Of a DNA stretch of 64,000 nucleotides, positions 42,743-57,974 are shown piece after piece. The position numbers and the translations under genes were made by a program. The stretch comes from Deltaproteobacteria bacterium (GTDB taxonomy: Bacteria > Myxococcota_A > Polyangia > Polyangiales > JADJMO01): assembly GCA_025363655.1 (NCBI GenBank), contig JANYDK010000116.1, forward strand, positions 62,001 through 126,000, in the 5' to 3' direction. The notes under the pieces were generated by a model, which was not told the DNA's origin, did not search any database, and saw only the letters and a program-made list of their open reading frames with translations. How positions within the stretch are numbered: position 1 is the stretch's first letter; each line of letters opens with the position of its first letter.

Positions 42743-43630
42743 TCAGCGCGTCGCGATCAGTCGCTCGAGGCCGTCGAGGCGTTGCAGCACGAACCGCTCG
42801 GTCGGCGTCAAATCGGCCGCGCGTTTGCGCTGGTCGACGAGGTACACGCGAAACGCGTTGAGATCGAAGCCACGCATCTTGCGGGCGGCGACATAGAGCT
42901 CGTCGACGATCGAGGCCGGCGGAAGGGCGCCACGCAAGGCATAGAGTTGGAGCGTGTAGTCGCCCCACGAGCCCTTGCCGGTGCCCGACGCGAGACGCGC
43001 GGAAAAGCGCGCCGCGAGGTCGATCGACTCGGGCGCGGCGTCTTTGCCCGATTTGAGATCCGTCAGGAGCTCTTCGAGACCATTGCGGAGGAGACGTTCG
43101 GCGCTCTCGGGGTTGCCGAGCGCGAGGGCTTTGTCGGCGACGCCCCCGAGGAGACGCAACGCTTCGCCGCGCCGCGGGCGATCGATGGTCATCTCTTCTT
43201 GCGCGACGCTGATCGCCGGCGAAGCCATCGGCGTCACGATCGGCGGATCGGGCGGACCGCTCTTGGCGGCGACGGGCACCGAGACCATCGTCACTGGACC
43301 GCCAGGGCTCGGCTCCTTGCTGTTCCAGGTGCGACGCGGTGTCTCGATTTCGCTGAGCGCGGAGAGGGTCATCTCTTGCGCGCCGATGGTGACGCGATCG
43401 CCCTCTGCGAGACGCGTGCGCGCGCCGATGCGCTGCCCGTTGACGAGCACGCCGTTGCGAGAGCCCGCGTCCTCGACGAAGACGTCGTCGTCACCGACCA
43501 AGAGGAGGGCGTGCCTCCTCGATACGAGAGGATCGTCGAGCGAGAGCTGGCAATCGGCGGAGCGCCCGATGACGAACGTCCCGGGGAAGAGCTCCAAGTC
43601 GTGCTTGAGGTAGCGGAGCCGGAAGCGCAT
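42743..43630 (-). CDS. FHA-domain protein A of a tandem pair
   Basis: 295 residues. Residues 1-90 are an FHA domain with GTFVIGRSADC, PLVSRRHALL and GSRNGVLVNG, covering the Arg, Ser-x-x-His and Asn of the phosphothreonine site. A linker (90-140) is Pro/Gly-rich. The C-terminal 150 residues are helical, with repeated Leu and Arg positions, and are unassigned. No membrane segment. It is separated by 6 bp from a paralogous FHA gene transcribed in the same direction. Confidence 0.87.
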   Translation of the reverse strand: MRFRLRYLKHDLELFPGTFVIGRSADCQLSLDDPLVSRRHALLLVGDDDVFVEDAGSRNGVLVNGQRIGARTRLAEGDRVTIGAQEMTLSALSEIETPRRTWNSKEPSPGGPVTMVSVPVAAKSGPPDPPIVTPMASPAISVAQEEMTIDRPRRGEALRLLGGVADKALALGNPESAERLLRNGLEELLTDLKSGKDAAPESIDLAARFSARLASGTGKGSWGDYTLQLYALRGALPPASIVDELYVAARKMRGFDLNAFRVYLVDQRKRAADLTPTERFVLQRLDGLERLIATR

Positions 43631-47382: not shown

Positions 47383-48558
47383 TCAGCGCTGCGCGACGTA
47401 CGCGGCCGACACGGCGAGGCGAGCGCGGCGGAGCTCGTCGTTTTCGAGCGGCTTGCCGAGCTTCACCGCGGTGGCGACGCGCTTGGCTTGCACCGCCAAC
47501 TGCTGCTGCGCTTGCCAGCCTCGATCGGTGTGGATGCCGAGCCCGATGCGGAAGCTGTCGCCGAACTCGACGGCCGTCGGAAAGCGCTGATCGGGGCTCT
47601 TTTCGAGCGCGCGCGCGAGGAGCATCTCGAGCTCGATGGGCGCCTGCGGCAAGAGCGTGCGCAGCTTCGGCGCGGGCGTCTGGACGTGATCGCAGGCGAC
47701 GAGCCAGTCGCTCCGATCTTCGACCGGGAAGGGGAGCCGACCCGTGAGCATCTCGAAGAGCATCACCGCCGAGCTGTAGAGATCGCTGCGTGCGTCGAGC
47801 GGCGGCTTGCCTTGGATTTGCTCGGGGCTCATGTACGCGACGGTGCCGGCGATGAGGTTCCCGGTGGCGGCGGCGACGCTCGCGGGGATGCGCGCGATGC
47901 CGAAGTCGGTGAGCTTGGCGACGCCGTCGGTGCGGAGGAGGACGTTGTCCGGTTTGACGTCGCGGTGGACGACGCCGAGCACGTGACACGCGCCGAGCGC
48001 ACCGAGCACTTGTTGGAAATAGTGCCACGCGCGATCGAAGGGAAGACAAGGGAGGATGCGCACGCCGGGGCTGACGTGGCGGCGCGCGTCGGCTTCGTGT
48101 CCTTTGCGCTCGATGAGCGAGCCGAGGGTCTCGCCCTTGACGAACTCCATCGCGATCGCGCTCGTGCCGCCGACGTCGGCGAGGCCGTAGAAGCGGACGA
48201 CGTTGGGGTGATCGAGCGCCGCGAGAATGCGCGCTTCGTTGGTGAAGAGATCGCGGATGCGACCTTGCTGCGAGAACGTCGGGTGGAGGATCTTGATCGC
48301 GGCCTCGAGCGGCGGCTGTACGCCGGCCCCTCCCCGCGGGTGCAACCAACCGTGATGGACGACGCCCATCCCACCTTCGCCGAGGATCGGCCCGAGGACT
48401 GCGAGCGCCCAGCCGAAGTCGATTTGCGAGCCCTGACCGGTCATTCCGATCGGGTGCACCGCCGTCGGCAGAGGTACGCCGCACCAGGGACACGAGCGAT
48501 AGCCCTGCGCGGACGTGCGTCCGCAGGACATGCATCGCTGGCTGAGTTCGTCGCTCAC
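47383..48558 (-). CDS. Ser/Thr kinase with N-terminal zinc ribbon
   Basis: 391 residues, GTG start. Residues 9-26 form a CxxC(10)CxxC zinc ribbon (C9, C12, C23, C26). The kinase domain, about 50-335, has GEGGMG at 60-65, Lys89, HRD at 188-190 (catalytic Asp190) and DFG at 208-210, and is an RD kinase that looks active. No membrane helix, so it is soluble. The C-terminal 50 residues are helical and basic. It is divergent from an FHA gene whose N-terminus is also a zinc ribbon, across 87 bp. It probably supplies phosphothreonine marks to the FHA readers in that gene set. Confidence 0.93.
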   Translation of the reverse strand: MSDELSQRCMSCGRTSAQGYRSCPWCGVPLPTAVHPIGMTGQGSQIDFGWALAVLGPILGEGGMGVVHHGWLHPRGGAGVQPPLEAAIKILHPTFSQQGRIRDLFTNEARILAALDHPNVVRFYGLADVGGTSAIAMEFVKGETLGSLIERKGHEADARRHVSPGVRILPCLPFDRAWHYFQQVLGALGACHVLGVVHRDVKPDNVLLRTDGVAKLTDFGIARIPASVAAATGNLIAGTVAYMSPEQIQGKPPLDARSDLYSSAVMLFEMLTGRLPFPVEDRSDWLVACDHVQTPAPKLRTLLPQAPIELEMLLARALEKSPDQRFPTAVEFGDSFRIGLGIHTDRGWQAQQQLAVQAKRVATAVKLGKPLENDELRRARLAVSAAYVAQR

Positions 48559-48645
48559 CGTGCCACCGTGCGAGGAAACGTACCATCCTCGGTTTCCCTT
48601 CGCCTTTGGAGCGACCACCGAGCGATCGCGATATGCTGCGCGGCC

Positions 48646-49479
48646 GTGACGTTCTGCGCCCGCTGCCGAGCTCCCGTGCTGACGACGGCGCGTTTTTGCG
48701 GGGAGTGCGGCGCGTGGATCGTTCCCGAGGCGCCCGAGGCCCAGCTGTCGCCGGAAGCGACGACCGGGTCGGCGCCGCTGCCGAAGGACGTGGCGCAGGC
48801 CTTGGCGCTCGCAAGCCAGACCCTCGAGAGCGGTGGAGGGCCGAAAAAGACGGCCATTCGTAGCACGCCGCCGCCGCCCAACCTCGACGCGCCCGGCGGC
48901 AAGAAGACGTTCGGTCGCACCGACGTCGCGCGCATCTCCTCGATGCCCGAGCTCCACGAGGCGGCCCGTAAATCGACGCCGCCGCCGGCTTTGAGCACGC
49001 CTTCGTCCTCGGGCAATTTCCCCATCGCCTCCCTTCCCAGCCTCGAGGCCCCACAGTCCCGTGCGGCCAAGACCGTCGCCGACGCGATGGCCCCGGTGAT
49101 GTCTGCGCACACGATCGCGCGGCAAAAAAAGCCACTCGGCGCGTTCCTCGTCTCCTTCCAGTACGAGCCCCTCGGCGCCTATTGGCCGCTCGGCCTCGGG
49201 GCCAACCTCGTCGGTCGCGCGGGAGCCCGCCCCGACCTCGACATCGGCCTGGCGGACATCACCGTCTCGAATGAGCAGGCGGTCATCACCGTCGAACCGA
49301 ATGTGCTGGGCATCGAGGACCGCGGCTCGAAAAACGGCACTTTCGTCAATGGCCGGGCCCTCCTCGGCGGGGCGAGGGCGCCGCTGAAGCACGGGGACAG
49401 GGTACGATTCGGCAGTTTCGAGACTGTCGTGGTCGTCGTACCGTACGTTGTCAGCGGGCCCGGCCTGTCGGGTGAGTGA
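48646..49479 (+). CDS. Zinc ribbon-FHA adaptor protein
   Basis: 277 residues, GTG start. Residues 4-25 are a zinc ribbon (CARC and CGEC pairs). A long disordered Pro/Ser/Thr region (about 30-160) could be a kinase substrate. The C-terminal FHA domain (about 165-270) has LVGRAGARPD, TVSNEQAVI and GSKNGTFVNG. The usual Ser-x-x-His appears as SNEQ, so the His is replaced by Gln. It may bind ligands differently. It is first in a co-directional four-gene set. Confidence 0.85.
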   Translation: MTFCARCRAPVLTTARFCGECGAWIVPEAPEAQLSPEATTGSAPLPKDVAQALALASQTLESGGGPKKTAIRSTPPPPNLDAPGGKKTFGRTDVARISSMPELHEAARKSTPPPALSTPSSSGNFPIASLPSLEAPQSRAAKTVADAMAPVMSAHTIARQKKPLGAFLVSFQYEPLGAYWPLGLGANLVGRAGARPDLDIGLADITVSNEQAVITVEPNVLGIEDRGSKNGTFVNGRALLGGARAPLKHGDRVRFGSFETVVVVVPYVVSGPGLSGE

Positions 49480-49535
49480 TTCGGGTGAGTGAAGCGCGAC
49501 GTTGGCAGCGGGTTGGTCGTTCGGAGGATGAGACG

Positions 49536-52520
49536 ATGATGGAAGCTCGGAGCAGGTTGGAACGTCGCGTAGGCCCCCTTGGCGTGGGGATGCTTCTCGC
49601 GCTCGGCGCGACGACGTTGGCGCCGCGGAACGCGCACGCCGAGAACATGATCTCGAGCTTCATCCGCATCGATTCGGAGCCGCAGGCCGACGAGAAGAAG
49701 GGGACGCCCAGCGTTCCCATGCTCGTCGAGCTCGGCACCCCGACGCCGATCTCGAGCTTCCAGGAAGGCTGCTTCTCGGGAGGTGCGGGGATCAAGCCGA
49801 CCGCGGCTGCGCTCTCCTGCATGTCGGCGAAAATCGAGAAGGACGGCTATTACAAGCAGTTCGAGTTCCCGAAAGAGAATGCGACCATCCTCGCGAAGGT
49901 CGGCGAAGAAGAGTACCCGATGGAGGTGCTCGACGCGGTCGCCTTCAAGGACGCGACCGCGGCCAACGCTGGCATCGCCTGGCTCATCCTCCTCGACGCC
50001 TCTTCCTCGGTCGACGTCAGTCGTTGGAGCGAAGAGCAAGACGCCGCCGAGCAGATCATCAAGTCGATGGGCGCCAACGACGCCGTGATGGTCCGCATCA
50101 TGGACGACAAGGGCGTCCGCGCGCACACCAATTGGCTCAGCTCCGGGAGCAAGGCCAAGGCGATCACGCTCATTCGTTCGATCCCGAAGTCGTTCCCTTC
50201 GGCCGGCAAGGTCGACGGCCTCATCGGGCGCATCGAAAAAGAGGCTCTCGGCGGCTTCCAAGAGCTCTTCGACAAAGGCGTCGAGGGCAACGAAGACTCG
50301 CTGCCCATCCTCCAGAGCATCGTCATTCTCTCGGACGGCGGCGACACCAGCGCCACCGGTCTCGGCGCGCCCGCCGAAGCGAAGGTCCTCCACGACAAGC
50401 TCGTCAAAGGAAACGACCTCGGCTCGCTCACGGACTTCACGCGCCTGCCGCTCCCGGTGACCACGCTCTGGTTCCCCGATCCCAAGCTCACTGGCGGCCT
50501 CGGCAACATCGACGAGGTGAAGACCGAGAGCGCGTTCCAGTGGATGTCGAACCTCGCGACCCCCGAGGTTGGCGGATACTTCGACGTCATCCAAGCGGGC
50601 GAGACCGGCAAGGGCGCGAAGATCGCGCGCATCATCCGGAACCGCTTCGACAACATGTACTACGTGAGCGCGCAGGCGAGCTGCCTCGCGCCCTCGACGC
50701 AGCAGACCTTCACGATGGCGTTCACCGACACCAAGTCGAAGATCGCCCCGGCGAAGTGGGAAAAAATCGGCATCGCGTACAACTTCGCGAAGTGGGTGCT
50801 CGACGTCGACAAGAAGAAGACGGAGGCCGCCGCCGCCTCCAAGCCGCTGCAAATCGGCGTCGAGTTCGACGTCTTCGGCAACTTCTGCTGGGGCGCCAAC
50901 GCGGGTCAGGCCGAGGCGTATTTCCTCACCGAGGCCGACGCGCCGGAGGTGAAGAAGGCCGTCGCCGACAAGACCGGCAAGAAGGGCGCTTCGCTCCTCC
51001 AGAACCTGCAGGCCAAGGGACAGAAGGCCGAGACGCTCAGCGTCACGCCCAACGCCGGCCACTTCCGCGTGCCCAACACGCCGGCGCTCTTTCCCGACGG
51101 CAAGGACTCCTTCTTCCTCAACGTCGTCGTCTTCGACAACAAGGCGAAGCGCGTCAGCACGCTCGATCAGAAAGGTGTCTTCCAGCTCAAGGCGGTGAAG
51201 GCGCCGGTCAACAAGCTGCTCATCGTCGGCGCGATCGGCGGCGGCGTGGTGCTCATCCTCCTCATCGCCATCCTCGCGCGCAGCGGCGGTGGTGGAAATG
51301 GACGCAGCAGCAAGCGTCGTCGTGGTGGCGCACCCGCGCCCGGGCCGATGCCCGGGCAACCTCCAGGGCCGATAGCTGCCCCGCTTCTCTCGCGTCCGCC
51401 GCCGGGACCCGCGCCGCCATTGCCGCCGATGGCTCCCGTCGGCAGCGCGCCGATGACCGCGATGGCGCCGGCGGTGGGGTTCTCTCCTCCGCCGACGGCG
51501 ATGGTCCCCTCGCCGGGCTTCGCGCAGACCGCTCCTGCCTCCGGCATCGGCGGCATCGGTGGCACCGCGATCGTGCCTTTTTCTCCGCCACCCGCCGTTG
51601 GCGGAGGCACTGCCTTCATGCACGCAGTCGCGCAGCCGCAGCCGCAGCCGTATCCGCCGTCCGCCGCGCAGACGGCAGCTGCGCCGTTGCCGATGCCGGT
51701 GCAGATGCCGATGCCGGTGCAGATGCCAACGCAGATGCCGAGCTCACCGGCGCCGCCGGTGCAGACGCAGTGGGTGCCGCCGCCTGTGCAAGTGCCGCCG
51801 ATGCCGCAGAAGCCGGCTTCGATGCCGCCGCCCTCGTACGCTGCAGGGCAAGCCAACGTCACCGTTCCGCCGGCGAACGTCCCGCAAATCGGCGGCTCGC
51901 TCCCCGCCGCCGAGCTCGCCGCGCCGCGCCCCGGTCTGCACGCGCAACAGAAGGGCGCGACCTCGTTTCCGACGACGTGTCCCAATCCGGCGTGTCGCAA
52001 GCAGGTGATGATTCCTCCCGGTGGCTCCGCGCAGTGCGCATTTTGCGGCACGCTCGTCGACGCCCACGGCGTGGCCATCTCTCCCATTCAAGGAGGCGCG
52101 GGCTTCGGTCTCACGGGTCACGTCTCGCCCGAGGCCGCCGAGCGCGCGGCCGGTGGCAAGAAGCCGGTGACCGCGCTCCTCGAGCCGCAACCGTACGCGC
52201 CGGGAGCGCAGGGAGCGCAGCCTCAGCAGGCCGTGTCGCTGATGGGAAAGGAAGGCACCTTTCGCATTCTTCCGGGCATCGAGAGTCGCGCTGGCCGTGA
52301 CGGCACCCTCTGCTCGATCGCGCTCGGTGAGCCGCGCGTCTCCGGCGTGCACGCGACCCTCAAGCTCGAGGCCGGCACCCTCTACGTGCGCGACGACCGT
52401 TCGCACAATGGCACCTTCGTCAACGGCAATCGTGTCTCGCCCGGCGTTTGGACGCCGGTGCCCGGGGGCAGCCAACTCAAATTCGGTCCAGCCGAATTTA
52501 CCGTGCGCCATGAGACGTGA
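49536..52520 (+). CDS. Exported VWA protein with membrane helix, cytosolic zinc ribbon and FHA domain
   Basis: 994 residues; I chose ATG 49536 because CGGAGGA lies 7 nt before it (a GTG overlapping the previous stop is also open). Signal peptide 1-35 ending NAHA. A VWA domain about 145-370 has the metal-site DASSS near 153 and LSDGGDTS. A second beta region runs to about 555. One membrane helix at 562-585, then a Pro/Met-rich linker of over 200 residues. A zinc ribbon is at about 815-838 and an FHA domain at about 905-990 (DRSHNGTFVNG). Topology therefore puts VWA outside and the FHA inside, a plausible transmembrane adaptor. Confidence 0.88.
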   Translation: MMEARSRLERRVGPLGVGMLLALGATTLAPRNAHAENMISSFIRIDSEPQADEKKGTPSVPMLVELGTPTPISSFQEGCFSGGAGIKPTAAALSCMSAKIEKDGYYKQFEFPKENATILAKVGEEEYPMEVLDAVAFKDATAANAGIAWLILLDASSSVDVSRWSEEQDAAEQIIKSMGANDAVMVRIMDDKGVRAHTNWLSSGSKAKAITLIRSIPKSFPSAGKVDGLIGRIEKEALGGFQELFDKGVEGNEDSLPILQSIVILSDGGDTSATGLGAPAEAKVLHDKLVKGNDLGSLTDFTRLPLPVTTLWFPDPKLTGGLGNIDEVKTESAFQWMSNLATPEVGGYFDVIQAGETGKGAKIARIIRNRFDNMYYVSAQASCLAPSTQQTFTMAFTDTKSKIAPAKWEKIGIAYNFAKWVLDVDKKKTEAAAASKPLQIGVEFDVFGNFCWGANAGQAEAYFLTEADAPEVKKAVADKTGKKGASLLQNLQAKGQKAETLSVTPNAGHFRVPNTPALFPDGKDSFFLNVVVFDNKAKRVSTLDQKGVFQLKAVKAPVNKLLIVGAIGGGVVLILLIAILARSGGGGNGRSSKRRRGGAPAPGPMPGQPPGPIAAPLLSRPPPGPAPPLPPMAPVGSAPMTAMAPAVGFSPPPTAMVPSPGFAQTAPASGIGGIGGTAIVPFSPPPAVGGGTAFMHAVAQPQPQPYPPSAAQTAAAPLPMPVQMPMPVQMPTQMPSSPAPPVQTQWVPPPVQVPPMPQKPASMPPPSYAAGQANVTVPPANVPQIGGSLPAAELAAPRPGLHAQQKGATSFPTTCPNPACRKQVMIPPGGSAQCAFCGTLVDAHGVAISPIQGGAGFGLTGHVSPEAAERAAGGKKPVTALLEPQPYAPGAQGAQPQQAVSLMGKEGTFRILPGIESRAGRDGTLCSIALGEPRVSGVHATLKLEAGTLYVRDDRSHNGTFVNGNRVSPGVWTPVPGGSQLKFGPAEFTVRHET

Positions 52521-52636: not shown

Positions 52637-54109
52637 ATGTCGGCGAGTGATCCCCGTGCAGAGGTGGCGACCCAGGTCGCGCTCGGGACGCAGCTCCCTG
52701 CGCTCGAGGTGGCCATCGCCACTGATTCCGGGCGCATGCCGGAGAAGCAGGTCAACGAAGACTGCGCGCTCGCTCGCGCGACACGTCATGGTCACCTCGT
52801 CGTCGTCTGCGACGGCATGGGCGGCCACGTCGGCGGCAAAGAAGCTTCGAACATCGCCGTCGAGACCATCTTCCACGTCGTCGACAACGCCGGACAGGGC
52901 CCGCCGGCGCAAATCCTCGCCGAGGCCGTGCGAGAGGCGAATCGCCAGGTGCATGGTCGACACACGACGATGCCCGAGCTCAAGGGCATGGGCTCGACCT
53001 GCGTCGCCATCCTCACGCATCCCGGCGGCACCGAGGTCGCGCACGTCGGTGACTCGCGCGTCTACTTGCTGACGCAGCAGCAGCTCTACCAAGTCACCAA
53101 AGATCACTCGCTCGTCCAGCGTCTCGTCGACGCCAACATGCTCACGCCGGAAGAGGCGGCGAGTCATCCGAGCGCCAACCAAATCACCAACGCGCTCGGC
53201 ATGAAGCCCGAGGTCGAGGTCGAGGTCCGGCCGCAGCCGTTCCCCTTCGGCGCCGGCGACACCTTCATTCTCTGCTCCGACGGGCTCTCCGACGAAATCG
53301 GACAGCAGGACATCGTGCAAATCCTCGCGCCCTGGCCGTCGGCGCCCGAGGCCGCGCAGCGGATGGTCGACCTCGCGAACGCGCGCGGTGGGCACGACAA
53401 CATCACCGTCGCGATCGTTCGTTTTCCGGGCGGCGGTCCCTTCCTCGCGCCGACGCCGACGAGCGCGAGTCGTTCGGCGACGCCGGTCGCTTCGCCGATC
53501 CTCGCCATCGCAGCTGCCACCGCGACGATGGACATGTCGGCCGTTCCTCCCGACGTGCACCAGCCTCAGCAGCCGATTCCGCCATCGGGTCCGCAGCAGG
53601 GAATGACGCCGATGGCGCCGCCGGCCGCGATGGTGCCGCAGTTCACGCCGCCGCCGCCGCCCGCTGCGTCGCCGGGAATTCCCACCTTCACGCCGGCCGA
53701 AGACTCCGGCCACAACCAGCGTCGCCGTGGCGGCTTCGGTTGGATCATCCTGGTGGTCGTGGTGCTCCTCGCGGGCGCGGCTGCTGCGTACTACGTGCTC
53801 GCGATCCACGGCAAGACGCCGACGTCGAGTGAGCCGCCGAAGCCCGTGCTCGACGACGAGCCCTCCGCCGAGCCGACCAAGACGGCGAAGAGCTCGAAGC
53901 CGAAGCCCGCAGTCGTCGACGATCCTCCGCCCGATCCTTCGACGACGAGCTCGACGAAGAAGCAGCCTCCGGGGCCAGGTCCATCGCCCTCGCCGAAGCC
54001 GACTTCGACCGACACGCAGAAGGTCGACCCGACCACCTCGTCGACGGCGCTCGAACCGACGCCGAAGCCGACGCTGCCGCCCATCCCCTCACCGCACCCC
54101 GACGAATAA
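52637..54109 (+). CDS. Membrane-anchored PP2C Ser/Thr phosphatase
   Basis: 490 residues, ATG 52637. Residues about 25-270 are a PP2C domain: NEDCALA, VCDGMGGHVGG, HVGDSRVYL, TKDHSLVQ, SDGLSDE and GGHDNITV, so metal ligands are all present. A Pro-rich linker leads to a membrane helix at about 368-390. A Pro/Ser/Thr-rich external tail of about 100 residues follows. The catalytic domain faces the cytoplasm. It is the only PP2C in the window and would reverse phosphorylation by the nearby kinases. Confidence 0.95.
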   Translation: MSASDPRAEVATQVALGTQLPALEVAIATDSGRMPEKQVNEDCALARATRHGHLVVVCDGMGGHVGGKEASNIAVETIFHVVDNAGQGPPAQILAEAVREANRQVHGRHTTMPELKGMGSTCVAILTHPGGTEVAHVGDSRVYLLTQQQLYQVTKDHSLVQRLVDANMLTPEEAASHPSANQITNALGMKPEVEVEVRPQPFPFGAGDTFILCSDGLSDEIGQQDIVQILAPWPSAPEAAQRMVDLANARGGHDNITVAIVRFPGGGPFLAPTPTSASRSATPVASPILAIAAATATMDMSAVPPDVHQPQQPIPPSGPQQGMTPMAPPAAMVPQFTPPPPPAASPGIPTFTPAEDSGHNQRRRGGFGWIILVVVVLLAGAAAAYYVLAIHGKTPTSSEPPKPVLDDEPSAEPTKTAKSSKPKPAVVDDPPPDPSTTSSTKKQPPGPGPSPSPKPTSTDTQKVDPTTSSTALEPTPKPTLPPIPSPHPDE

Positions 54110-54132: not shown

Positions 54133-57100
54133 ATGATCCCCGGAATTGGCAAGGCGCAGCTCATCGTCGGCAGCGCACCGAATTGCGACATCGTCCTCCA
54201 AGGCCCCGGTGTCGGCGCGCAGCACTTGATGCTGTCGATGCAGGGCAACGCGCTCGTCGTCACCGATCTCGGTACGCCGGGCGGAAGCTCGCACGCTGGC
54301 ATGCAGCTGGCGCCGCAGTCGGCGACGCCGATTCAGCACGCCGCGCCGCTCACCGCCGGACAGGTGCAGGTCCCGCTCAATCACCCGCTCGTCGGGCTCT
54401 TGCTCCTCATCAACGGTTCGGCGCCGCCGCAGCCGGGGCGCATCTCGCTCGGCCGCGAGCCGACGCGGGTCAACGTCGCCGTCTCGCACCCTGCCGTGTC
54501 GGGCCTGCACGCGACCATCGATTTCAGCTCCCGCACGGTCACCGATCACGATTCGAAATCCGGCACGTACATCGGGGGAAATCGCATTCCGCCGAACCAG
54601 GCGATGCCCCTCGATGCCTCGGGAATCCTCCAGCTCGGTCCGGTGACGTTGTCGCTCGGCTCGTTGCAGCCGCTCGTGCAAGCGGCGCCCAACTTCGGCG
54701 GAGGCTCGCTCCCCGCGGCTGCGCAAGCGCCGATGCCGATGCCGATGCCGATGCCGATGGCAGCGCCGGCGGTGGCGATGCCGCCGATGCCAGGCGCACC
54801 CGGTGGCACCGACCTGCCTCGCTCGAGCGGCAAGGCCCGCACGATGATCGGCGAGGCCGTCTTCGGTGGCGGCTTGGCGATGATCAACATCGGCCGCACG
54901 CCCGACAACCAGATCGTCGTCCAGCACGCGCAGGTGTCGAGCAAGCACGCGGCGCTCGTGCGGGAGGCCGACGGCAAGCTCTACCTGATGGACAAGGGCA
55001 GCGCGAACGGCACCTACGTGCGCGGCGCCCGCATTCCCTCCGGCCAACGCGCCGAAGTGTCGAATGGCGAGAAGGTCTACATCGGCCCGATGCCGCTGGT
55101 GATCCAGATCGCCGGGCAGAAGGTCGAGGCCATCGTCGAGGTCGACGCCAACGCCTGGGCCGGCAAGCCGACCTGCTCGATCGAAGCGTGGAACCTCTAT
55201 CTCGAGGTCCCCGATCGCGACAACCCCGGCGCGCAGAAGGTGCTGCTCGACAGCGTCAGCTTCAAGGCCCTCCCCGGCGACCTCATCGCCCTCATGGGTC
55301 CGTCGGGCGCCGGTAAGACGACGCTGCTCATGACCCTCAACGGCTACCAAGCGCCGACGAGCGGACAGGTGCGCATCAACGGCGAAGATCTCTACGAGAT
55401 CTACGACTTGCTCCGCGGCTCCATCGGCTACGTGCCGCAGGACGACATCGTCCACCCCGAATTGACGGTGTGGGAAGCGGTTCGCTACTCGGCGAAGTTC
55501 CGGCTTCCGCCCGACATGAGCGAGGAGGAAATCGATCAGCGCGTCGAGCAGACGCTGAAAGATCTCGGCCTCGAGGCGGTGCAGAACCTGCAAATCGGCA
55601 AGCCCGAGAAGAAGGTCCTCTCCGGCGGACAGCGCAAGCGCGTCAACATCGCGCTCGAGCTGGTGACCGATCCGATCATCATGTTCCTCGACGAGCCGAC
55701 CTCCGGTCTCGCTGCCGACGACACCACCGCGCTCATTCTCCTGCTCAGCGATCTGGCGAAGAAGACGGGCAAGACGATCATCGTCACCATCCACCAGCCA
55801 GCCAAAGACGAGTACGAGAAGTTCAACCTCGCGCTCGTCATGGGCTACGGCGGCGTGCCGATGTACTTCGGTCCGACCGCGCGCGACTCCTACAAGTTCT
55901 TCGGACACTTCCTGGAGACGCAAGGGAAGCCGAACAACATCGACAACCCGCGCGACATGTTCGACATGCTCAATCTCCGCGAGCGCAAGGTGCTCGACGA
56001 GATGCGCACGCGTGATCCGAACGTGCAGCGCGCCACGGGCCGGCTCGCCGCGGCCAAGCAGTGGAAGGAAGAGTTCTTCGCGCAGAACAACGCCATCTTC
56101 GCCAAGATGTACTCGGGCGCGCGCACCATCGGCGCGGCGGAGGGGCACAAGACGGGCACCTTCCATCGCGGCTCCCCGCCCTTCTTCCGGCAGCTCGGGC
56201 TCCTGATCTCCCGTTATTTCAAGGTCAAAGTGCGCGACCGTGCGGGCACCGCGATCATGCTCTTGCAGGCCCCGATCATCGGCGCGCTCCTCTGCGTCGT
56301 CTTCGGTCCACAGAAGCCGTCGACGCCTCCATGGTGCATCGCCGCGCTCCAAGGGCTGAAGAGCATCGCCGGCAAGGGCGGGGAAGACGGCGGCGACGCC
56401 AGCGACTTCCTCAAAGGGCACGACGTCCGCGACGCGGCCAACTCGCTCTTCTTCGTCGTCGTCTCCGCCGTCTGGTTCGGGACCTCGAACGCGGCGCGCG
56501 AGATCGTCAGCGAGCGCGCCATCTATCTCCGCGAGCGCATGGTCAACCTGCGGCTCAGCAACTACGTGCTCTCGAAGTACATCCTCCTCAGCATCATCTG
56601 CGTCGTGCAGTGCGCGATGCTGCTCGGCATCGTCTCGCCGATCCTCGGCTTCCACGGCCTCACCGACGGGCATCCCGACGTCTTCTTCCAGCAGCTCGGC
56701 ATCCTCACGCTCACCGCGATGGACGCCGTCGCGCTCGGGCTCTTGCTGTCGTCGGTCGTCGGCTCGAGCGAGGCGGCGATGGCCCTGACGCCGATCGCGC
56801 TCATCCCGCAGGTCGTCCTCGGCGGCACGCTGGTGCCGATGACCACCAATCAAATCCTCGAGTACCCGATGTGGGCGGTCCCCGCGCGCTGGGGCTTCGA
56901 GGGCTCGATCACCCCCGAGCGTCTCCTCAACGCGAGTGAGAGCGGGTGGCTCTTCACCCTGCCGAAATCGAAGGAGCTGGCCGATCCGAACGCGGCCGCG
57001 CTCCTCGAGCAGCTCTTCCTCAAGGACAACGGCGACAAGCTCCAATTCGTCTGCGCCAAGGCCGAAATAGCCGCCAAACAAGGCGCCAACTCGGTCAACG

Positions 57101-57237
57101 GAAACTTCCCCTTCGAGGGCGCGTGGGGCTTCACCGAGTTCTCTCAGCAGTGGATCCCGTTCGCCGTGCTCGGCACGATGACGCAGTTCACGCTGATCAT
57201 GATGATGATCATCCTCCGCAGGAAAGACCCGGTCTAG
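54133..57237 (+). CDS. ABCG-like transporter with N-terminal FHA repeats
   Basis: 1034 residues. The N-terminal 335 residues hold up to three FHA-like repeats. The first (1-85) is degenerate. The second (about 103-180) has ISLGREPT, AVSGLHATI and SKSGTYIGG. The third (about 245-325) has NIGRTPDNQ, SSKHAALV and GSANGTYVRG and looks complete. An ABC ATPase follows: Walker A GPSGAGKT at 389-396, signature LSGGQRKR near 496, Walker B IIMFLDEP near 515. About six membrane helices end the protein. Domain order (ATPase before membrane) is that of ABCG half-transporters. Cargo unknown. Confidence 0.92.
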   Translation: MIPGIGKAQLIVGSAPNCDIVLQGPGVGAQHLMLSMQGNALVVTDLGTPGGSSHAGMQLAPQSATPIQHAAPLTAGQVQVPLNHPLVGLLLLINGSAPPQPGRISLGREPTRVNVAVSHPAVSGLHATIDFSSRTVTDHDSKSGTYIGGNRIPPNQAMPLDASGILQLGPVTLSLGSLQPLVQAAPNFGGGSLPAAAQAPMPMPMPMPMAAPAVAMPPMPGAPGGTDLPRSSGKARTMIGEAVFGGGLAMINIGRTPDNQIVVQHAQVSSKHAALVREADGKLYLMDKGSANGTYVRGARIPSGQRAEVSNGEKVYIGPMPLVIQIAGQKVEAIVEVDANAWAGKPTCSIEAWNLYLEVPDRDNPGAQKVLLDSVSFKALPGDLIALMGPSGAGKTTLLMTLNGYQAPTSGQVRINGEDLYEIYDLLRGSIGYVPQDDIVHPELTVWEAVRYSAKFRLPPDMSEEEIDQRVEQTLKDLGLEAVQNLQIGKPEKKVLSGGQRKRVNIALELVTDPIIMFLDEPTSGLAADDTTALILLLSDLAKKTGKTIIVTIHQPAKDEYEKFNLALVMGYGGVPMYFGPTARDSYKFFGHFLETQGKPNNIDNPRDMFDMLNLRERKVLDEMRTRDPNVQRATGRLAAAKQWKEEFFAQNNAIFAKMYSGARTIGAAEGHKTGTFHRGSPPFFRQLGLLISRYFKVKVRDRAGTAIMLLQAPIIGALLCVVFGPQKPSTPPWCIAALQGLKSIAGKGGEDGGDASDFLKGHDVRDAANSLFFVVVSAVWFGTSNAAREIVSERAIYLRERMVNLRLSNYVLSKYILLSIICVVQCAMLLGIVSPILGFHGLTDGHPDVFFQQLGILTLTAMDAVALGLLLSSVVGSSEAAMALTPIALIPQVVLGGTLVPMTTNQILEYPMWAVPARWGFEGSITPERLLNASESGWLFTLPKSKELADPNAAALLEQLFLKDNGDKLQFVCAKAEIAAKQGANSVNGNFPFEGAWGFTEFSQQWIPFAVLGTMTQFTLIMMMIILRRKDPV

Positions 57238-57262: not shown

Positions 57263-57835
57263 CTAGTCCTTACAGCCGGTGGCGCAGCTGATGTACGGCG
57301 TCACCTGTGGCTCTTCGGCCGAGGCGGCGCTGACGTCGGAGCTGCAGGCACCGGCGAGGGCGTCGCGGAGGCACTGCGAGCAGGTGTCGTCGGGTGATTT
57401 CGGAGCGCCCGGTTTGCAGTAGGTCTTGTCGCACGGGGTCGCGCACACCGTCGCGCCGCAGAAGCACGTGTTGGCGTGTTTGACGACCGCGGCGCGTCCC
57501 TTGGTGTAGCCGTCGCCGCAGCAGACGAGGCAACCCGAGGTGCTGCCCTTGGCCTTGCACGTCGCCGCGATCGGATCGCCCGCGTCGGTGCCCGTGTCCG
57601 CGGAGACCGCCGTGTCGGGAGCGACTGCGGTGTCGGGCTTGGCCGAATCGGAGACCGTCGAATCGGTGCCCACGCCGCTGTCGGTGCCCACGCCGGTGTC
57701 GGTACCCACTCCGGAGTCGAGAACGGTGGTGTCATCGCGGGCGGCGGCGTCGTCGGCAGCGCGGAAGCCGTCGACGTCGTAGGCGCAGCCGGTGAGGGCG
57801 ACGAAGGCTCCGAGCGAGAGTGACGTGAAACGCAC
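57263..57835 (-). CDS. Cys-rich lipoprotein with Asp/Thr/Val stalk
   Basis: 190 residues from GTG 57835, chosen because AGGAGG is 6 nt before it. Lipobox VALTGC, Cys at about residue 17. Residues 25-85 repeat GVGTDTGVGTDS-type units, a flexible stalk. The last 100 residues hold about 16 Cys (CLVCCGDGY, CFCGATVC, CSQC). It is convergent with the FHA transporter gene and divergent from the DNA polymerase gene. Function unknown; same overall plan as the protein at 46333. Confidence 0.8.
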   Translation of the reverse strand: MRFTSLSLGAFVALTGCAYDVDGFRAADDAAARDDTTVLDSGVGTDTGVGTDSGVGTDSTVSDSAKPDTAVAPDTAVSADTGTDAGDPIAATCKAKGSTSGCLVCCGDGYTKGRAAVVKHANTCFCGATVCATPCDKTYCKPGAPKSPDDTCSQCLRDALAGACSSDVSAASAEEPQVTPYISCATGCKD

Positions 57836-57974
57836 GAATGTCCTCCTAGCACGGCCCTCCGAGTCCCGCCGCTGCACATCCGTTGCCGCCTGGACCGCGA
57901 GCGCTCACCCGCGTACGCCGATGCCTTCGCTGATGCTTTCGCCGATGCCTGCGCCGATGTCGGTCGAGAGATAG

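Follow-up and report, generated by a model that had tools for sequence, protein, structure and literature searches.

Bacteria classically couple the envelope to threonine phosphorylation through transmembrane kinases that carry their sensors on the outside. PpkA, which belongs to the type VI secretion systems (T6SS) of Pseudomonas and Acidovorax, is described as crossing the inner membrane once, with part of the chain in the periplasm, and as acting together with a cognate phosphatase and an FHA protein (PMC3224232, PMC12607579). In P. aeruginosa the periplasmic part of PpkA is a VWA domain (PMC3224232). The Acidovorax protein, a kinase that passes the membrane once, extends into the periplasm and partners Fha, is reported to form condensates (PMC12607579). 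Phosphorylation-dependent clustering through FHA domains is also known from Rv1747 (PMC9312465, PMC5549992). Its FHA-linker-FHA part condenses when phosphorylated by PknF, PstP reverses the process, and nanoclusters are described at the membrane (PMC9312465). In Sulfolobus, the zinc finger-FHA protein ArnA and the vWA-beta-sandwich protein ArnB belong to one phosphorylation pathway (PMC6509490). The T7SSc, T7SSd and T7SSe secretion loci combine FHA and vWA parts with a kinase and a PPM phosphatase (PMC11217815), and gene groups of kinase, PP2C and vWA are already in print (PMC7159879). A single chain that joins VWA, Ig-like, transmembrane and FHA parts and is encoded with an exporter operon was not found in the literature searched, in which subscription journals are thinly covered.

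The locus described here encodes such a chain. It lies in a 64,000-nucleotide stretch of DNA from a deltaproteobacterium (the window), and its parts, read from N- to C-terminus, are a signal peptide, a VWA fold, an Ig/IPT-like domain, a transmembrane helix, a Pro/Ala/Gly-rich linker, a zinc ribbon and an FHA domain.

49523–49527, plus strand: GGAGG, likely ribosome-binding site, read directly
49536–52520, plus strand: VWA-Ig-TM-zinc ribbon-FHA protein, 994 residues, stop codon within the coordinates; 61 named relatives
49536–49640, plus strand: signal peptide, residues 1–35 (AHA/EN), from sequence
49941–50666, plus strand: VWA-fold domain, residues 136–377, from model and structure match
49995–50009, plus strand: DASSS, a MIDAS-type motif, residues 154–158, from sequence
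50790–51200, plus strand: Ig/IPT-like domain with inserted helices, about residues 419–555, from a separate model
51213–51278, plus strand: transmembrane helix, residues 560–581, from hydropathy
51279–51977, plus strand: Pro/Ala/Gly-rich linker, residues 582–814, with 10 K/R and 1 D/E, from sequence
51978–52046, plus strand: zinc ribbon CPNPAC-x13-CAFC, residues 815–837, from motif
52254–52514, plus strand: FHA domain, residues 907–993, with G920 R921, S936 H939 and N958 G959, from Pfam and conservation

The GGAGG sequence stands 5' of the paired start codons ATG 49536/49539, and the open frame extends upstream to GTG 49476. Pfam returns only FHA-type matches on this protein: FHA at residues 919–984 (E 1.3e-12), with the FHA-like Yop-YscD_cpl covering the same stretch. 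The same search detected no kinase domain on the chain. The initial annotation had read on this frame a signal peptide, a VWA domain with DASSS, a Pro-rich linker, a zinc ribbon and an FHA domain; sequence, structure model and Pfam bear out these parts and their coordinates. The single helix that it placed near residues 562–585 is put by hydropathy at 560–581. It made no mention of the Ig/IPT-like domain, of four near-invariant ectodomain cysteines or of the operon.

The VWA domain would be missed by profile searches. Pfam VWA does not match the window protein at E 0.01, and among the 58 members of the ectodomain alignment VWA_2 matches eight and VWA two. When a profile of these 58 ectodomains was run against the PDB, no sequence matched at E values up to 1, so the fold assignment rests on the structure model. 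The AlphaFold2 model of the ectodomain, built from the 58 sequences, has a pLDDT of 89 and a pTM of 0.87. Model residues 102–343, equivalent to 136–377 of the protein, match VWA domains of solved structures with Z up to 18.1 and an rmsd of 2.6 over 181 residues. The best match is Rpn10; alpha2-delta, integrin I domains and anthrax toxin receptors rank shortly after it. The lowest Foldseek E value, 1.1e-8, belongs to the archaeal ArnAB complex (8s05), which ranks 49th in VIA-align with Z 15.7 over the VWA part. Here the structural fold is a stronger test of VWA membership than the Pfam profile, and the VWA domain, as modelled, is real but divergent.

The metal site of this domain is not conserved in the family. 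Family counts are given over 62 proteins, the window protein and its 61 named relatives. The window protein has both DxSxS and the second Asp (SDGG at residue 266); the MIDAS Thr is not part of this assignment. The first Asp is present in all 62 proteins, DxSx(S/T) in eight and the second Asp in five. DxSxS and the second Asp occur together in three only, the window protein, L054 and L055, which cluster in one group of a tree rooted by choice on the window protein's group. D-x-D-x-R stands at the site in 18 members, and clade-specific replacements such as DADxR and DAASS suggest an altered site and not random decay. As the site is complete in 3/62, metal-dependent adhesion is not a shared function of the family. 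Adhesion through a conserved metal site was considered for the family as a whole and rejected on these residue counts. Four ectodomain cysteines are near-invariant (61, 61, 62 and 62 of 62), and the ectodomain is probably stabilized by two disulfides.

The membrane-proximal part of the ectodomain was modelled alone, with a pLDDT of 85. It resembles domains of the Ig/IPT type: its top structure matches, at Z 9.7, are the corresponding domain of an alpha-amylase and that of a CGTase, followed by Rel C-domains at 9.2. Foldseek support is weak, with a lowest E of 0.021, and the VIA lists cover listed families only, so that the domain may belong to another family. The Ig/IPT-like assignment is accordingly a moderate one.

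Topology was drawn from our own sequence rules for signal peptides, hydropathy, basic residues and cysteines. The signal-peptide rule is satisfied by 59/62 family proteins and by 7/1040 control segments taken from protein tails. A hydrophobic helix follows the ectodomain in 59/62; the exceptions are L067 and L083, which have no in-frame helix, and L105, which meets the contig end. In all 59 members with the helix, the next 25 residues contain three to eight K/R and no more than one D/E. An N-terminus outside and a C-terminus inside are assigned because signal peptide, single helix, basic and acid-poor flank, and the four ectodomain cysteines agree. A one-pass protein with VWA outside the cytoplasm, the placement seen in PpkA, is well supported by these computations, as the initial annotation had proposed. 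An outer membrane is usual in the lineage (Myxococcota); if one is assumed here, 'outside' for the VWA–FHA protein and its ectodomain would mean the periplasm, a position that does not imply adhesion at the cell surface.

The cytoplasmic side begins with the linker. In the window protein, 233 Pro/Ala/Gly-rich residues separate the helix from the zinc ribbon and a further 69 lead to the FHA domain. Among the 43 members with an in-frame FHA domain, the distance from helix to FHA ranges from 37 to 322 residues, and the median Pro+Gly+Ala fraction of the linker is 0.66. Because the linker is long and variable in length, recruitment or clustering fits better than a transmitted change of shape. The zinc ribbon, sought in the ectodomain frame only, has its motif in 17/62 members and is therefore optional in the family. 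The FHA domain of the window protein combines a profile match with GR, SxxH and NG, the residues named for phosphothreonine binding in Rad53 and Rv1747 (PMC5549992) and in bacterial FHA domains (PMC1262709). Among the 43 proteins, G is present in 43, R in 42, S in 42, H in 43, N in 41 and the last G in 43. An internal FHA domain with its phosphopeptide-binding residues thus holds among the members with an in-frame FHA domain, and its prediction as a phosphothreonine reader is well supported computationally. Neither of the two outcomes that the initial annotation named as refuting it, a cytoplasmic VWA domain or an FHA segment devoid of these residues, is seen in the computations. Since these residues are near-invariant and the VWA metal site is not, phosphothreonine reading is the function that the family would share.

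The VWA–FHA family is real and widely conserved in one lineage; related arrangements of its parts are already in print. A search with the ectodomain alignment for the same architecture found 61 named loci, all Myxococcota by title, in which the order of parts recurs at about 27–60% ectodomain identity. The titles name Polyangiaceae, Sorangium, Polyangium, Labilithrix, Byssovorax, Nannocystis exedens (one MAG), Myxococcales, Deltaproteobacteria and the like. Counts of distribution follow this ectodomain only. Of the 183 genomes of the order, 109 have a match at E 1e-3, a few of these being weak VWA-only or fragment matches; four of the five listed genomes labelled f1 are among those matched. 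In a set of 377 genomes drawn from the phylum, 34 match at E 1e-8, and every one of them belongs to family f1 or f12 of this order; f12 appears to be Polyangiaceae. The ectodomain is present in eight of 38 relatives, with the source genome counted. Among the genomes searched, the ectodomain family is restricted to these two families. Searches with the whole protein found nothing in viral contigs and nothing in genome contigs, for which the degenerate peptides were too specific.

Not every relative carries the FHA domain on the VWA chain. It lies in the same frame in 43 of the 62 proteins. In eight it is in another frame nearby (L058, L059, L062, L068, L075, L080, L082 and L108), the frames being broken in the assembly or in the gene. 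In five the frame runs to the contig end before the FHA domain is reached (L054, L071, L077, L087 and L105). In six no FHA domain was found near the VWA gene (L064, L066, L067, L070, L083 and L104). Four of these, L064, L066, L070 and L104, lack it although the frame is intact through the ectodomain and is not cut by a contig end; in L070 only 785 bases of contig lie beyond the ectodomain. In L064 a PP2C gene directly follows the FHA-less VWA gene. L104 (genome G017) keeps the VWA gene and a zinc-ribbon-FHA gene, has no FHA domain on the VWA protein and has neither PP2C nor ABC gene nearby. L067 and L083 have neither helix nor FHA in frame and no operon partners; their assemblies also hold L058 and L102.

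The VWA–FHA gene is the second of a conserved operon, in the order zinc-ribbon-FHA gene, VWA–FHA gene, membrane PP2C and FHA3-ABC exporter of the Rv1747 kind. Counts of neighbours take in only loci whose contig had room.

47383–48558, minus strand: zinc-ribbon Ser/Thr kinase, divergent; start GTG 48558 or others
48568–49479, plus strand: zinc-ribbon-FHA protein, start GTG 48568 or 48646; upstream in 46/54 loci
52637–54109, plus strand: PP2C phosphatase with C-terminal membrane helix; downstream in 43/52 loci
54133–57237, plus strand: exporter with three FHA domains, ABC ATPase and ABC2 permease, from Pfam; within 5.5 kb downstream in 35/46 loci

The upstream zinc-ribbon-FHA protein of the window has SNEQ in place of SxxH, and in this genome it may be no phosphothreonine reader. 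The C-terminal helix is present in 42 of 44 PP2C proteins. The residues before it are the more basic side in 28 of 42, a weak indication that the PP2C domain is on the inner side of the membrane. PP2C is missing between the VWA and ABC genes in L074, L086, L092, L093, L096 and L103. As in the Rv1747 type, a single exporter chain combines FHA domains with an ABC ATPase and an ABC2 permease. FHA1 has lost most of the binding residues; in FHA2, G, R, S and H remain and N is missing; FHA3 has all six phosphothreonine residues in 39/39 proteins. Just before FHA3, near exporter residue 251, the motif basic-x-x-T-[hydrophobic]-x-G contains a Thr that is invariant (39/39). This Thr is a candidate phosphosite, but could just as well belong to the first strand of the FHA domain. 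The divergent kinase of this genome has HRD and DFG motifs and its own zinc ribbon. A kinase match within 4 kb upstream occurs in 5/50 loci only, and a fixed kinase partner in the conserved neighbourhood was rejected on this count. The lineage is rich in Ser/Thr kinases. Elsewhere in the window, two more FHA genes lie on the opposite strand, at 42743–43630 (minus) and 43637 to about 44536 (minus), the second with a zinc ribbon. Just past the operon, 57263–57877 (minus) encodes a putative secreted protein, Asp/Thr-rich and cysteine-rich, with no Pfam match.

Computation directly provides the fold, the topology signals, the residues of the phosphothreonine pocket and the operon. On this basis we give about even chances to a membrane-anchored phosphothreonine reader that helps to cluster or gate the exporter and is tied to the periplasm by its VWA-Ig ectodomain. 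A role in gathering or placing the exporter is proposed because of the analogy with Rv1747 and Acidovorax PpkA. The proposed mechanism is as follows. (i) The VWA–FHA protein would span the inner membrane once, N-terminus outside, with the VWA and Ig/IPT-like ectodomain in the periplasm. (ii) With its tail of disordered linker, zinc ribbon and phosphothreonine-reading FHA domain, it would be the anchored reader in a phospho-switched module for export, whose other members, a soluble FHA protein, a membrane phosphatase and the FHA-ABC exporter, come from the same operon. (iii) A Ser/Thr kinase, here possibly the divergent zinc-ribbon kinase and elsewhere other kinases, would phosphorylate threonines in flexible stretches of the exporter and of its partner proteins. 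(iv) The FHA domain of the VWA protein and FHA3 of the exporter would bind these phosphothreonines, so that the exporter is gathered around the VWA protein. (v) The membrane-bound PP2C would reverse clustering. (vi) Through its ectodomain, the VWA–FHA protein would link the cluster to a partner in the periplasm, which could be the material exported or a protein of the envelope. Which threonines are phosphorylated, the clustering, the control of the exporter, its cargo and the partner of the ectodomain are inferred. The position of the kinase outside the conserved neighbourhood, the FHA-less relatives and the gaps in PP2C count against this explanation, as do the weak indication for an inner-side PP2C and the SNEQ of the upstream FHA protein. 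A more specific form, a 'reader receptor' in which periplasmic VWA-Ig and phosphothreonine reader on one chain set where phosphorylation-driven clusters of the FHA-ABC exporter form, is offered tentatively and seems rather doubtful. If it held, the state of the envelope and cytoplasmic threonine phosphorylation would converge on one molecule.

Other readings draw on the same evidence. If the protein were an outside-in receptor, the metal site of the ectodomain would bind a ligand and alter the FHA tail, and a signal would enter the cytoplasm. The VWA fold with a complete DASSS...D in the window protein favours this, as does the hypothesis that the extracellular VWA sensor of PpkA relays signals inward, put forward for that kinase (PMC3224232). 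A metal site complete in so few members, with the second Asp in five and D-x-D-x-R in 18, argues against it, and a linker of such variable length makes a transmitted change of shape improbable, although ligand-driven clustering would still be compatible. Signalling of this kind is unlikely. A direct outside-in or inside-out link had been suggested in the initial annotation; VWA and FHA do share one chain, and it is the word 'direct' that the linker makes doubtful. In a reading that we rate just as low, the FHA domain would sit constantly on a phosphorylated cytoplasmic scaffold and the protein would be a structural anchor that positions a periplasmic or envelope complex, the exporter being its neighbour and not its target. 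Conservation of the ectodomain without its metal site agrees with an anchor, and so does L104, where the VWA and zinc-ribbon-FHA genes persist without adjoining PP2C and ABC; an exporter so close in most loci argues instead for a functional tie.

A cell-surface adhesin or integrin-like protein is very improbable. The VWA fold is indeed common to integrin I domains and anthrax toxin receptors, but many non-adhesive VWA proteins share it, the best Z being that of Rpn10. The inner-membrane helix, in a lineage assumed to have an outer membrane, would make the ectodomain periplasmic, and the metal site is not conserved; the description of the external domain as 'adhesion-type' in the initial annotation is not sustained. 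That the VWA part is cytoplasmic, or the frame mis-called, is the least credible of these readings. Its one argument, the missing Pfam VWA match in the window protein, is opposed by signal peptides in 59/62 members, the four conserved cysteines, the ribosome-binding site, the model and the homologues.

The preferred reading, an anchored reader of phosphothreonines, places the outside domain on a reader and not on a kinase, in a family matched in 109/183 genomes of the order, whose genes mostly share an operon with those of a phosphatase and an FHA-ABC exporter. This operon is a defined, testable system for exporter placement by phosphothreonine readers. The ectodomain shares its fold with the VWA domains of integrins and anthrax toxin receptors; the VWA–FHA family differs from these in its unconserved MIDAS (3/62), its bacterial origin, its probably periplasmic location and its FHA tail. 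ArnA and ArnB are two chains that act on archaellum expression (PMC6509490), whereas the VWA–FHA protein is one chain across the membrane, with signal peptide and helix. The vWA protein of T7SS loci, TscE, is predicted to be cytoplasmic, and FHA there is described mainly on the ATPase (PMC11217815); in the VWA–FHA protein VWA is predicted outside. In the descriptions of Rv1747 cited here, PknF, PstP and Rv2623 are named as its partners and a VWA–FHA membrane partner is not mentioned (PMC9312465, PMC5549992). Like Rv1747 of M. tuberculosis, the operon exporter joins an ABC ATPase and an ABC2 permease to FHA domains; it differs in having three of the latter. PpkA, as described, and the VWA–FHA protein are both one-pass proteins linked to threonine phosphorylation, with an extracytoplasmic VWA domain in the P. 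aeruginosa protein. Inside the cell, however, PpkA bears an N-terminal kinase and the VWA–FHA protein an FHA reader with no kinase on the chain; PpkA serves T6SS, and the neighbours of the VWA–FHA gene encode an ABC exporter and not T6SS components.
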